64,000 bases of DNA from Methanosphaera sp. (GTDB lineage: Archaea > Methanobacteriota > Methanobacteria > Methanobacteriales > Methanobacteriaceae): positions 1-64,000 of the forward strand of contig NZ_JALEKL010000009.1 of NCBI RefSeq assembly GCF_022768985.1. Direction: 5' to 3'. Position 1 is the stretch's first letter; every line of letters begins with the position of its first letter. A program made the translations under genes and the position numbers. This document shows, in pieces, positions 9,152 to 38,936 of the stretch. Under the pieces are notes generated by a model. The model had not been told where the DNA came from, searched no databases, and was given only the letters and a program-made list of their open reading frames with translations.

Positions 9152-10135
9152 CTATTTACCACTAAATCCCATTATTATATCACTACTAAAGTCAAATACT
9201 GTTTTTTTCTCATTTTCATGTTGTAGTGTTAGTTTTGGTTCCTCTGTTACACTTCCTACACATGCAGCATTTATATGTGTTTTTTCAAGCATACTTATTG
9301 TTTCATCTGTATTTTCAGGATCTAGTGTCATTACAAATGCACTTCCTGGATACATTTTAAGCCAGCTTATCCAATCTACATCGTCAGGTTTTGGTATCAT
9401 GTCAAGATCTATTGCTGCTCCCATCTCTGATGCTTCAAGCAGCATACCTAATGTTCCTACAGCACCTGGATTACTTATATCTTTTGCAGCATGTACTAGG
9501 TGTTTTTTTCCAATGGTATTCATTACCTTTATCTGATCTTGTACATATTTTGGTGTTTTATCACTTGTTGAATCCCAGTTTATCTCTGTTCCTGGATAAA
9601 TACTTCCATCAAGATCTATTGCTATGATTACATCATCACCTGCTTGTGCATTTGAACTTGGTATTACACTATCTTTATCTACAATTCCACTTATTGCAAC
9701 ATCTAGTGCATCATATGGTGTGTCAGGATGTGTATGTCCTCCTACCATTGGTACTCCAAATTTCTTTACACCTTCTTTTATTCCATCCATAATTTCATCT
9801 ACTGTATCTGGATTTGATGATGATAATACATTTGTCATTCCAACAGGTAGTCCTCCCATTGCTGCTATATCATTTACATTTACAAGTACTGAACAGTATC
9901 CTGCCCACCATGGATTAAGATTCATTAATGCTCCCCATATTCCATCTGTTGCAAGTAGCATTAGTTGATTGTTTCCTATATTTATTGCTGCTGCATCATC
10001 TCCAAATGCTAGATGTACATCTCCTGATATATTAAATACATCATCAAGTTTTTTTTGAACATCTGCTATTGAATGTTTACGTGTTACTCCCTTAAATGTT
10101 CTTATTGATTCTACAATTTCATTAAAGTCTGTTAT
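9152..10135 (-). CDS. mmp2: Methanogenesis marker protein 2 (AIR-synthase/PurM-like), non-canonical start
   Basis: A PurM/SelD-fold ATP-binding protein of the marker-2 type. The first ATG in this frame (9961, in MLLATDGIWGA) would remove the conserved GDDAA nucleotide/metal loop. The open frame continues upstream through FKGVTRKHSIADVQKKL and FGDDAAAIN to a stop at 10157-10159, and contains no ATG, GTG or TTG. A strong purine stretch (GGGGGAG) lies right before GTA-ATT-ATA-ACA-GAC. An ATA start at 10135, 5 nt after GGAG, gives 327 aa, about the usual family length; ATT at 10138 is the alternative. Function is unknown, but family members are restricted to methanogens. The family call is firm on the GDDAA and DISNPGAVGTLG motifs; the start codon is inferred. 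Confidence 0.75.
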   Translation of the reverse strand: MTDFNEIVESIRTFKGVTRKHSIADVQKKLDDVFNISGDVHLAFGDDAAAINIGNNQLMLLATDGIWGALMNLNPWWAGYCSVLVNVNDIAAMGGLPVGMTNVLSSSNPDTVDEIMDGIKEGVKKFGVPMVGGHTHPDTPYDALDVAISGIVDKDSVIPSSNAQAGDDVIIAIDLDGSIYPGTEINWDSTSDKTPKYVQDQIKVMNTIGKKHLVHAAKDISNPGAVGTLGMLLEASEMGAAIDLDMIPKPDDVDWISWLKMYPGSAFVMTLDPENTDETISMLEKTHINAACVGSVTEEPKLTLQHENEKKTVFDFSSDIIMGFSGK

Positions 10136-10258
10136 AATTACTCCCCCAGTATTGTATTATTTAAAAATATTTTTTCTCCTTTTTATGATATATTTAGGTT
10201 TTTATTTATTGTAGTATAAAAAGTATGATTTAGTTTCATATTAATAAAAAAAAATTTT

Positions 10259-15147: not shown

Positions 15148-15419
15148 AAATTTGATTTTACTCCTAATTGTTAATAATATCTTAGTATAATCTATAATAG
15201 ATGATTGTATTATAATTTTTACTAAAAACTACTTTAAAAACCGATAGATTATAATTTAAGTTATTTATTTGAATATTTAAATATTATTAAATTCAAAATA
15301 TTTATAAATGATAAAGAAAATAAGAAAACACTAAGTTTTAAATTATTTTTTTTACATTTAAGAAAAAAAAAGTAAAACTTAAAACAGATGTAGAATAACT
15401 TATTTATCCAAATTATATT

Positions 15420-15440
15420 ATGTATAAGGAGGTTTTATAA
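15420..15440 (+). promoter_or_regulatory. Mini-ORF carrying the ribosome binding site, overlapping an ATT start
   Basis: ATG-TAT-AAG-GAG-GTT-TTA-TAA is a six-codon reading frame containing the GGAGG of the next gene. Its TAA shares its last A with the ATT that opens the downstream gene (TAATT), mimicking the common TAATG stop/start overlap. The paralogue at 17388 has the same arrangement with a shorter mini-ORF. Confidence 0.45.
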
Positions 15441-16996
15441 TTAAGGGATACATTGGAATCATCCTAGCATTCATGGTAATATGTTTGATAGGATGTGCAT
15501 CAGCTACTAACAACACAGACATACCATCAAATCTTGATGAGATACAATCAGACAATTCAGTAACACATACCAGTAGTAATGATGTTGTTTTAAACAGTGC
15601 ATCAAAATCTGTAAAACAAGCACCAACAACTACCTCAAATTCAGTAAATAGTAGTAGCTCAAAAGCAGTGAAAACTGCAAATAATGCAAAAATTACAACA
15701 AAAACATCAGTGGGAAGTCTTACAAGCAACCCTGGAAGTACTGTTACATTTAAAACTACAGTAAAAACATCAGATAATAAAAATGTTAATACAGGAAAGG
15801 TTGCCTATAAGATTAATGGGAAAACAATTGGAACATCATCAGTATCTGAAGGTGTTTCAACACTTAAATATAAAATTCCCGCATCTTACACATCAGCTGA
15901 ATATCAGATAACAGCAAAGTATGGTGAAAATGATAAATATAAAGAATCATCTGATAGTGCAACACTACATTTAAATAATGTTACTAAGACTAAAACAACA
16001 GTTGGAAGTCTTACAAGTCATCCTGGATCTAAAGTTACACTTAAAGCTAATGTTAAAACATTAAATAATAAAGCCGTAAATTCAGGAAAAGTATCATTTA
16101 AGATTAATGGTAAATCTATTGGAACAAGTAAAGTTTCAAAAGGAGTAGCTACAATAAGCTACACTATACCAACTTCATTTTCATCATCACAATACCAGAT
16201 AAGTGCCATATATGGACAAAATGGTGAATTTAAAGAATCATCTGATAGTGCAACACTACACCTTAATAATGTTACAAAAACCAGCATAAAAATAGAAACA
16301 AATTCTATTATTGCAGGTGAAACTAACAAGATTAAGGCAACAATTAAAAGTTCTAAAACCGTTAAAGATGGTAAAGTATCTTTTAAATTGAATGGAAAGA
16401 CAATTGGAACAGTAAAAGTTTCAAATGGAGAAGCAGTACTAGATTATGCTGCGCCAGGAACACTTAAAGGATCATACACACTAACTGCAATTTATGGTCA
16501 GTGTGGTGAATTTAAAGAATCTCAAACATCTATGAAGATAGATGTAGCTTCATCACAATATCTTAAACCATCAAAAAACTGTGAAGTTGGAGATGCATTA
16601 TTTAAGAAAGTTGTAAAAGAAGTTACAGCAGAATGTACCACTACATATCAAAAGGCAAAAGCATTATTTGATTATGCAAATCGTAAACTTGTATATAGTG
16701 GATACTATAATACACGTTATGGTGCAAAAGGTACACTGCAAAGAGAATATGGTAACTGTTGTGACATGGCACACGTAGTTGTCGCTTTAATGCGTACAGC
16801 TGGAATACAAGCAAGATATAACCATGCAAAATGTTACTTTAGTAGTGGTCTTGTTACAGGACATGTGTGGGCTGAAGTACTTGTTGATGGAGTATGGTAT
16901 AAATGCGATGCAACATCAATAAGAAACTCATTTGGAGTTATAAAAAATTGGTATAAATGCGGTACAATAAATAAATACGCATCATTACCATTTTAG
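15440..16996 (+). CDS. Secreted Ig-repeat protein with transglutaminase/pseudomurein-endoisopeptidase-like domain
   Basis: From an ATT at 15440 (7 nt after GGAGG) the protein has 518 residues. This start restores a signal peptide (basic start, hydrophobic IIL-AFM-VICLIG core, then CASA); the first ATG (15473) would cut it in half. A Thr/Ser/Asn-rich spacer follows, then three Ig-like repeats of about 90-95 residues (each with the GKVxxKxNGKxIGT and IYGQxGEFKESS pattern). The C-terminal papain/transglutaminase-type domain has C440 or C441 in YGNCCDMAH, H475 in TGHVWAEV and D490 in CDATS. The domain resembles pseudomurein endoisopeptidases (PeiW/PeiP-like), but no pseudomurein-binding repeats are seen. 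Likely a cell-wall-associated hydrolase or adhesin-like protein. Confidence 0.83.
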   Translation: MKGYIGIILAFMVICLIGCASATNNTDIPSNLDEIQSDNSVTHTSSNDVVLNSASKSVKQAPTTTSNSVNSSSSKAVKTANNAKITTKTSVGSLTSNPGSTVTFKTTVKTSDNKNVNTGKVAYKINGKTIGTSSVSEGVSTLKYKIPASYTSAEYQITAKYGENDKYKESSDSATLHLNNVTKTKTTVGSLTSHPGSKVTLKANVKTLNNKAVNSGKVSFKINGKSIGTSKVSKGVATISYTIPTSFSSSQYQISAIYGQNGEFKESSDSATLHLNNVTKTSIKIETNSIIAGETNKIKATIKSSKTVKDGKVSFKLNGKTIGTVKVSNGEAVLDYAAPGTLKGSYTLTAIYGQCGEFKESQTSMKIDVASSQYLKPSKNCEVGDALFKKVVKEVTAECTTTYQKAKALFDYANRKLVYSGYYNTRYGAKGTLQREYGNCCDMAHVVVALMRTAGIQARYNHAKCYFSSGLVTGHVWAEVLVDGVWYKCDATSIRNSFGVIKNWYKCGTINKYASLPF

Positions 16997-17387
16997 ATGA
17001 AATTATACTCCCACTTTATTTATTTTTTTTAATCTAACACTTTACTATTTTTTAATTTAATTTTTCATGGCAAAAAAACTCTTTTTTTATTAAATTACAT
17101 GTTATGTGTAAACTTTCAACCATATATTTTAAAACTAACTTATAAATTCTATTTTTTATATTAAATTTCATTAAACTATACTTTAATAATTAAATAAAAA
17201 TATATTCATCTAATTTTAATTAAAAACCATATTTTAAATATCTATTTTTTAATTTAATGAACTATTTTTAAAATTTAAATACTATTAACTCTAAAAACTA
17301 ATTTAAATAATAAAAAAACTAATAATTAATAAGTTTTTATTAAAACAAACCTTAAAAAAGCTTTACATAAATTATTAGAAAGAATAC
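16997..17387. other. AT-rich spacer between the two surface-protein paralogues
   Basis: About 390 bp, nearly pure A/T, with no coding potential and no clear hairpin. It must contain the terminator of the first gene and the promoter of the second. TTTACATAA (about 17363-17371) is a weak candidate TATA element, but many such strings occur by chance here. Confidence 0.4.
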
Positions 17388-17402
17388 ATGGAGGTTTTAT
17401 AA
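17388..17402 (+). promoter_or_regulatory. Second mini-ORF/TAATT start arrangement
   Basis: ATG-GAG-GTT-TTA-TAA overlaps the GGAGG of the downstream gene and ends in TAATT, exactly as upstream of 15440. The shared string GGAGGTTTTATAATTAA is identical in both paralogues although the sequence just 5' of it differs. Confidence 0.45.
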
Positions 17403-18955
17403 TTAAAAAATACTATGCAATTATTCTATCATTCATAATAATATGTCTGATAGGATGCATATCGGCAGCAAATACTACAGATACACAAATAAATTCCAAT
17501 AAAATACAACAAGACACACCAACAACACATACAAGTAGTGATAATATTTCAACCAATACAACAAAAAAAGTAACAACTACAAATAAAATAACCACCACAT
17601 CAAAAGTAGCAAAAACTGCACCTAACACAAAAGTTGCAACAAAAACATCACTAGGATCACTTACAAGTAAACCAGGAGCAAAAGTAACACTAAAAAGTAC
17701 AGTGAAAACATCAAATAATAAGAAAATCAACACAGGAAAAGTAACCTATAAAATCAATGGAAAAACAATTGCAACATCAAAAGTTTCAGATGGAATTGCA
17801 ACAATAAAATACACCATACCAAAATCATTTACATCAACAAAATACACAATAACTGCAAAATATAGTGGAAGTAGTAATTATAAAGACTCATCTGATAGTG
17901 CAACACTACACCTAAAAAATGTGATAAAAACAAAAACATCACTAGGATCACTTAGTAGCTATCCAGGATATAAAGTTACACTAAAAAGTACAGTGAAAAC
18001 ATCAAATAATAAGAAAATTAACACAGGAAAAGTAACATTTAAGATCAATGGAAAAACAATTGCAACATCAAAAGTATCACATGGAATTGCAACAATAAGA
18101 TACATAATACCCAAATCATACAGATCACCAACATACCAGATAAGTGCCATATATGGACAAAATGGTGAATTTAAAAAATCATCAGACACAGCAACACTAC
18201 ACATGAAAAATGTGATAAAAACCAGTATAAAAATAGAGACAAAAACAATAAAAGCAGGTGAAAATAATAAAATAAAAGCAACAATTAAAAGTTCTAAAAA
18301 TATCCCAAATGGTAAAGTATCATTTAAATTAGATGGAAAAACAATTGGTACTGTAAAAGTATCAGATGGAAAAGCTGTGCTAAATTATAATGCACCAAAA
18401 ACACTAAAAGACAAATACACACTAACTATTATCTATGGACAGCATAATGAATTTAGAAAATCTCAAAATTCAATAAAAATAGATGTAATAAAACCATCAC
18501 CAACACCATCATCTAAGTATCTTAAACCTACACGTAATTGTCAAGTTAATGATCCATTATTTAAAAAAGCTGTAGGTGAAGTTACATCAGGATATACCTC
18601 AACATATGCTAAAGCAAGAGCACTATTTAATTATGCAAAGCAAAGACTTTCATATAGTGGATATTATAATACACGCTATGGTGCAAAAGGCACATTTACT
18701 CGTAGATATGGTAATTGTTGTGACATGGCACATGTAGTTGTTGCCCTAATGCGTACAGCAAAAATTGAGGCAAGATATAATCATGCAGTGTGTTACTTTA
18801 GAAGTGGTCTTGTTACAGGACACATATGGGCTGAAGTACGCATAGATGGCATATGGTATAGGTGTGATGCAACATCAAAGAGAAATTCATTTGGAGTGAT
18901 AAGAAATTGGTATAGTTGCTATAATCTAAGACGCTATGTATCATTACCATTTTAA
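17402..18955 (+). CDS. Secreted Ig-repeat protein with transglutaminase/pseudomurein-endoisopeptidase-like domain, paralogue 2
   Basis: A 517-aa paralogue of the preceding gene with the same order: signal peptide (a hydrophobic stretch of IILSFIIICLIGC type), Thr/Lys-rich spacer, three Ig-like repeats, and the C-terminal cysteine-protease-like domain with YGNCCDMAH, TGHIWAEV and CDATS. There is no ATG, GTG or TTG before residue 101 in this frame (first GTG at 17702), so the ATT at 17402 behind GGAGG is the only start that gives a signal peptide. Codons are strongly A/C-ending, unlike paralogue 1. The catalytic domain is more basic (RLSYSG, RNWYSC, RRYVSLPF). Confidence 0.83.
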   Translation: MKKYYAIILSFIIICLIGCISAANTTDTQINSNKIQQDTPTTHTSSDNISTNTTKKVTTTNKITTTSKVAKTAPNTKVATKTSLGSLTSKPGAKVTLKSTVKTSNNKKINTGKVTYKINGKTIATSKVSDGIATIKYTIPKSFTSTKYTITAKYSGSSNYKDSSDSATLHLKNVIKTKTSLGSLSSYPGYKVTLKSTVKTSNNKKINTGKVTFKINGKTIATSKVSHGIATIRYIIPKSYRSPTYQISAIYGQNGEFKKSSDTATLHMKNVIKTSIKIETKTIKAGENNKIKATIKSSKNIPNGKVSFKLDGKTIGTVKVSDGKAVLNYNAPKTLKDKYTLTIIYGQHNEFRKSQNSIKIDVIKPSPTPSSKYLKPTRNCQVNDPLFKKAVGEVTSGYTSTYAKARALFNYAKQRLSYSGYYNTRYGAKGTFTRRYGNCCDMAHVVVALMRTAKIEARYNHAVCYFRSGLVTGHIWAEVRIDGIWYRCDATSKRNSFGVIRNWYSCYNLRRYVSLPF

Positions 18956-38727: not shown

Positions 38728-38802
<75 letters not shown>

Positions 38803-38829
38803 CTTGAAATAAACTTCTTTTTAAAATCC

Positions 38830-38861: not shown

Positions 38862-38936
<75 letters not shown>

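Follow-up and report, generated by a model that had tools for sequence, protein, structure and literature searches.

Textbooks treat AUU start codons as a rarity, with bacterial infC as the main known case, and two tandem genes of the archaeon Methanosphaera sp. that appear to begin with ATT raise the question of where, and by what route, their translation starts. The genes lie on the forward strand of a window of 64,000 nucleotides (nt) (contig NZ_JALEKL010000009.1 of assembly GCF_022768985.1, positions 1 to 64,000) and encode exported adhesin-like proteins that are 68% identical: gene 1 (15440..16996; 518 amino acids), with the hydrophobic N-terminus IKGYIGIILAFMVICLIGCASA, and its paralogue gene 2 (17402..18955; 517 amino acids). 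Each protein has three Big_3_5 repeats and a C-terminal Transglut_core domain (PF16640 and PF01841, above cut-off in both in a domain search), and together with an N-terminal hydrophobic segment or signal peptide, judged by eye in both cases, these immunoglobulin (Ig)-like repeats and the terminal domain make up the layout of a transglutaminase-type adhesin-like protein. On sequence evidence we consider it highly probable (about 0.85) that ATT at 15440 and at 17402 is the real start codon, used by direct initiation, and that the two genes represent one case of a conserved set of non-AUG starts in Methanosphaera.

The leader shared by the two genes

Each gene is preceded by a GGAGG Shine-Dalgarno core (15428-15432 for gene 1 and 17390..17394 for gene 2, both on the forward strand and read from the sequence), which in gene 1 belongs to the extended Shine-Dalgarno TAAGGAGGT (15425..15433), a 9-nt run matching TAAGGAGGTGATC that is kept in orthologues; runs of at least 9 nt precede only 3 of some 1,100 first-ATG sites in two sampled Methanosphaera genomes. 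The ATT (15440..15442 and 17402..17404) lies 7 nt past GGAGG, a gap within the usual range of the genome, where 7-9 nt is commonest before ATG. Its first base is the last of a TAA that closes a mini open reading frame (mini-ORF), MYKEVL* in gene 1 (15420..15440, with ATG at 15420 and TAA at 15438-15440) and MEVL* in gene 2 (17388..17402, with ATG at 17388 and TAA at 17400-17402). GGAGG, mini-ORF, TAA and ATT, which the original prediction had described for both paralogues, can be read directly in the sequence, as can its statement that gene 2 is without a standard start for about 100 codons, the first such codon being the GTG at 17702, 100 codons past ATT. Gene 1 has an in-frame stop 5 codons upstream of ATT. 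The earlier claim that ATT alone would yield a complete signal peptide is likewise borne out, as the whole signal peptide of either gene cannot be obtained from any ATG, GTG or TTG; a further in-frame near-cognate codon that the prediction had passed over, the ATA at 15437 and 17399, has a poor 4-nt gap to GGAGG. A 17-mer common to both leaders occurs exactly twice in the 1.6-megabase (Mb) genome, both times at these genes.

Relatives of the protein are present in all 20 Methanosphaera genomes compared, and 15 of them carry an exact copy of the 18-mer GGAGGTTTTATAATTAAG, always at this transglutaminase gene, while genome G001 has the one-base variant GGAGGTATTATAATTAAG at the same gene. A 20-base version of the leader, searched with up to two mismatches, was found at this gene in none of 119 genomes of other genera, the sole match among them, AGAGGTTTTATAATTAGGGG, being without the GGAGG core; one-mismatch matches of the leader pattern outside the transglutaminase family fall mostly within coding sequence. 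In G002 and G003 a second paralogue has the sequence GGAGGTTTAATTYATAAAGGG; ATA takes the place of ATT in its GGAGGTTTAATTYATAAAG region, after a gap of 8 nt, and ATG occurs at this position in no orthologue of the transglutaminase gene. A codon alignment of 14 orthologues, all of which have ATT, contains 32 columns that are invariant in residue and only three that are invariant in codon, namely ATT (codon 1), AAG (codon 2) and one AAT, and the internal isoleucine (Ile) columns of the same alignment mix ATA, ATT and ATC. The original prediction had held that orthologues with a plain ATG at another place and no conservation of TAATT would speak against it; this check came out the opposite way.

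Non-AUG starts in queE and other genes

The gene queE starts with ATG in the 28 genomes of other genera that were examined (MKAPIIEIF and similar) and in the basal Methanosphaera genome G013 (ATG TCA AAT ATA ACT GAA). The other 19 of the 20 Methanosphaera genomes have ATT (14), ATC (4) or ACG (1) in the column of this methionine or one codon off. In G009, G019 and G015 an in-frame TAA stands directly 5′ of ATT and the conserved core of the protein begins four codons later, so that no standard start is possible in these three genes. The 19 genomes form one clade (support 100/99), and the queE tree requires two or more gains of ATC and one of ACG, and shows no reversal to ATG. These comparisons firmly establish specificity to the genus in the case of queE and of the transglutaminase leader. 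ATT stands at the start position, is conserved and has no standard alternative, and where it changes it is swapped for other non-AUG codons with no return to AUG. The conserved leader and spacing, the replacement of ATT by ATA and never by ATG, and the boxed-in queE genes together lend strong support to the earlier proposal that ATT is the real start.

Further candidates came from a Shine-Dalgarno-anchored scan of samples, about 0.8 Mb each of G000 and G016 and 0.4 Mb of the M. smithii-like genome G061, and from a reciprocal-best-hit comparison of G016 with G000 (199 pairs). With manual judgement included, about 12 of 623 ORFs in G000, 8 of 577 in G016 and at most 1 of 354 in G061 are candidates for a non-AUG start, that is roughly 1.5-2% of the sampled ORFs in Methanosphaera by a scan that missed a second transglutaminase family. 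In a list compiled by hand, A directly follows 16 of 20 non-AUG starts, compared with 49% of ATG starts (p = 0.006).

Among these genes, lonB (TIGR00764) has ATA in G016 and ATT in G000, both after GGAGGGTTAAAT, in a conserved frame whose first standard codon comes only 69-81 codons in. An ATP-grasp-like protein, identified by reading of its sequence only, has ATT in both genomes, and a 676-residue surface-protein family keeps ATT, at a gap of 8 or 9 nt, in most of the species whose start was covered. The second transglutaminase family has GGAGGCGGTAAGATTAAG with an apparent ATT start in G000 and G016, and a third transglutaminase protein in G016 starts with TTG. In a 236-residue membrane protein ATT occurs in G000 only; the same column is ATG in the paralogue and in several orthologues, which serves as independent evidence that the start lies at ATT. 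In the window, the gene for methanogenesis marker 2 (9152..10156, reverse strand) runs for 65 codons without a standard start and possibly begins with ATA at 10135-10133 (or with ACA); its orthologue in G016 starts at the next codon, with TTG, which leaves the precise position ambiguous.

Several side observations accompany these. The two species share a similar leader, TTTTGGTTTATTATG(A)GGAGGCGGTAAGATTAAG, in the second transglutaminase family (L102 (-), L228 (-)), with an upstream ATG that opens an out-of-frame mini-ORF. A surface protein of G009 (L119:6209-8590 (-)) has a signal-peptide-like N-terminus when read from GGAGGTAATATT-ATT-AAA, immediately after an in-frame TAG, and is another plausible case (L058/L119) of ATT as the start of a protein with a signal peptide. 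G000 encodes a transporter-like protein (L112:1671-2849 (+)) and a 420-residue membrane protein (L251 (-)), both with an apparent ATA after a long Shine-Dalgarno, and G061 a 331-residue ORF (L263 (-)) with a candidate ACG start after GAGGAGGGTGAAAAC. An ORF of G016 (L225:17735-18607 (+)) is related to a G000 protein of which some 50 N-terminal residues are missing from its open frame, and may be frameshifted or a pseudogene.

Initiation at ATT and its alternatives

If ATT is the start, the ordinary initiator transfer RNA (tRNA), with its CAU anticodon, would read it as methionine through a third-position mismatch, the Shine-Dalgarno 7 nt upstream would position the ribosome at ATT, and the A at +4 would perhaps help. 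The set of codons read in this way would be AUU, AUC, AUA and, rarely, ACG, and many of the genes concerned would encode exported or membrane proteins, with queE and lonB in addition. In archaea aIF1 discriminates against non-canonical starts (PMC6237735), and a weak start combined with a clear Shine-Dalgarno would probably keep initiation low and sensitive to aIF1 fidelity, as AUU does for bacterial infC. The methionine at residue 1, the lower initiation and the regulation are what we infer from the arrangement, and by analogy the low or tunable expression envisaged in the original prediction is a plausible reason for keeping ATT.

A reconstruction over 36 prokaryote groups found changes from GUG to AUG at about 4% and from AUG to AUU at 1 in 61,358 starts (PMC5622118). 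Because AUG is normally favoured (PMC5622118) and yet ATG has not been restored, the persistence of the non-AUG codons, with one-step changes to ATG fixed neither in queE nor in the transglutaminase gene, suggests selection. Our broadest proposal, offered tentatively and at less than even odds, is that AUU, AUC and AUA (with ACG) constitute a regular start class in Methanosphaera that covers at least 1.5-2% of genes and acts as a selected, genus-wide, fidelity-sensitive translational brake for exported proteins as well as a few housekeeping enzymes; this would be the first archaeal regulon defined by the identity of its start codon. It is also possible, if rather unlikely, that selection on starts has simply been relaxed, so that AUN starts are tolerated and the occurrence of ATT, ATC, ATA or ACG reflects drift and not tuned control, an account that leaves the start codons real and is compatible with initiation at ATT. 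The candidates do cover unrelated functions (QueE, LonB, the ATP-grasp-like protein and the surface proteins), start codons interchange in queE, and ATT is sporadic in the 236-residue family, all of which relaxed selection would accommodate. It fits less well with a queE tree of 19 genomes that contains no return to ATG, though AUG is normally restored (PMC5622118), or with a transglutaminase gene that retains its ATT together with an exceptionally long Shine-Dalgarno.

Several observations weigh against initiation at ATT or against its wider significance. The excess of candidates over G061 (about 20 of 1,200 compared with 1 of 354; Fisher p = 0.06) makes a genus-level excess in overall frequency suggestive only. 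A lineage-specific change in initiation that would explain the use of AUU was not found when aIF1 and the initiator tRNA were examined. An altered initiator tRNA was rejected, as that of G016 has a normal CAU anticodon and A1-U72. So was a special initiator with an Ile anticodon: the two tandem tRNA-Ile(GAU) genes of the window (38728-38803 and 38862-38936), identical in sequence and 58 base pairs apart, look like ordinary elongators. Among the aIF1 loci compared (L294 and others of L275-L297, L304-L308, L336, L348), Methanosphaera aIF1 ends in ...IEIK and has no basic C-terminal tail such as occurs in almost every Methanobrevibacter-type genome examined, and loss of this tail was discarded as a cause, the tail being missing also in G013, with its ATG queE, and in several other archaea. 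In the transglutaminase leader itself the spacer TTTTATA and the second codon are invariant as well; this goes beyond what the start codon explains, and some of the conservation may have another role. Finally, a downstream ATG or TTG is present as codon 7 in some orthologues, and a start there could yield a signal peptide of reduced length.

The invariant spacer and second codon, with a TCCAAATTAT-like block that recurs in many orthologue leaders, are what favours a start at a downstream ATG, TTG or GTG, the conserved block then being a regulatory DNA or RNA element. We regard such a start as improbable: the downstream standard codons are not conserved and do not occur at all within the first 20 codons in G000b, G005, G006 and G008, those that could be used are without a Shine-Dalgarno and would truncate the signal peptide, and single-sequence folds gave no common hairpin. 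The TCCAAATTAT-like block lies at 15408-15419 of the window, some 10-20 nt before the Shine-Dalgarno, and is a possible promoter or leader element. A conserved hairpin masking the Shine-Dalgarno was also considered and rejected, for although AATTAT/ATAATT can pair in some leaders, the single-sequence folds differ among species.

Direct initiation at ATT is to be preferred also to termination-reinitiation, by which ribosomes would read the mini-ORF, stop at its TAA and restart at the overlapping ATT, as the original prediction had suggested for both genes. Both genes of the source genome do have an ATG mini-ORF that ends in TAATT, and G002 and G003 have an ATG in the same frame 15 codons upstream. 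The short mini-ORF is nevertheless confined to the two genes of the source genome and has not been kept elsewhere in the genus: at 15 of 19 loci its frame contains no ATG, GTG or TTG, no conserved short upstream ORF overlapping the main start was found, and the queE, lonB and surface-protein loci with ATT mostly have no TAATT overlap. Given this lack of conservation, re-initiation cannot operate generally, and this part of the prediction, now very unlikely, has to be given up; since a mini-ORF start is missing at 15 of 19 loci, TAATT itself is best seen, on the sequences compared, as a by-product of a conserved TATAATT spacer. A programmed -1 frameshift, with a start at the mini-ORF ATG and a slip into the main frame near GTT TTA TAA, draws on the main ORF lying in the -1 frame of the mini-ORF and on a stop after a U-rich stretch, but can be rejected with re-initiation on the non-conservation of the mini-ORF and is the most remote of these possibilities, the upstream ATG being missing in most orthologues and an in-frame stop standing immediately 5′ of ATT in several queE genes.

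Comparison with known systems

In the literature searched, with subscription papers mostly outside the search, there is no report of AUU starts in Methanosphaera or of a genus-wide archaeal set. If the starts proposed here are real, archaeal initiation can use AUU, AUC and AUA routinely, the genes concerned provide natural substrates for probing the fidelity of aIF1, and in this inhabitant of the human gut adhesin-like proteins are given wrong N-termini and wrong signal peptides by gene-finders limited to ATG, GTG and TTG.

The overlap of stop and start recalls the TAATG arrangement by which genes are coupled, and queE of other genera often overlaps an upstream stop in this manner. The TAATT of genes 1 and 2, in contrast, overlaps a mini-ORF that is not conserved, and most queE genes of Methanosphaera have a separated Shine-Dalgarno and ATT. 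As regards the proteins, the transglutaminase-type (group III) adhesin-like proteins of gut methanogens combine Ig-like archaeal big domains, a C-terminal transglutaminase domain and a single N-terminal hydrophobic segment (PMC11532034), a layout shared by genes 1 and 2. That report is silent on start codons, whereas here, of three transglutaminase-domain genes examined in G016, two probably start with ATT.

The closest parallels in initiation are bacterial. IF3, a fidelity factor, represses both infC, with AUU or AUC, and sigR, with GTC (PMC5472188), and sigR has an extended, conserved ribosome-binding site, with GTC in 32 of 34 species and GTT in 2 of 34, and has been misannotated to a canonical codon (PMC5472188). 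Methanosphaera resembles these systems, including infC with its AUC in Streptomyces, in combining a conserved non-canonical start with a clear Shine-Dalgarno. It differs in being an archaeon with aIF1 in place of IF3, control by aIF1 being proposed by analogy only, and in the range of its candidates, which are many unrelated genes, mostly for exported proteins, plus queE and lonB. Among archaea, an ATT start has been deduced in an Asgard tubulin operon from alignment, fold and the position of the ribosome-binding site (PMC13394414). That case concerns one gene in one metagenome-assembled genome, while the ATT of Methanosphaera is kept across the genus and in several families.

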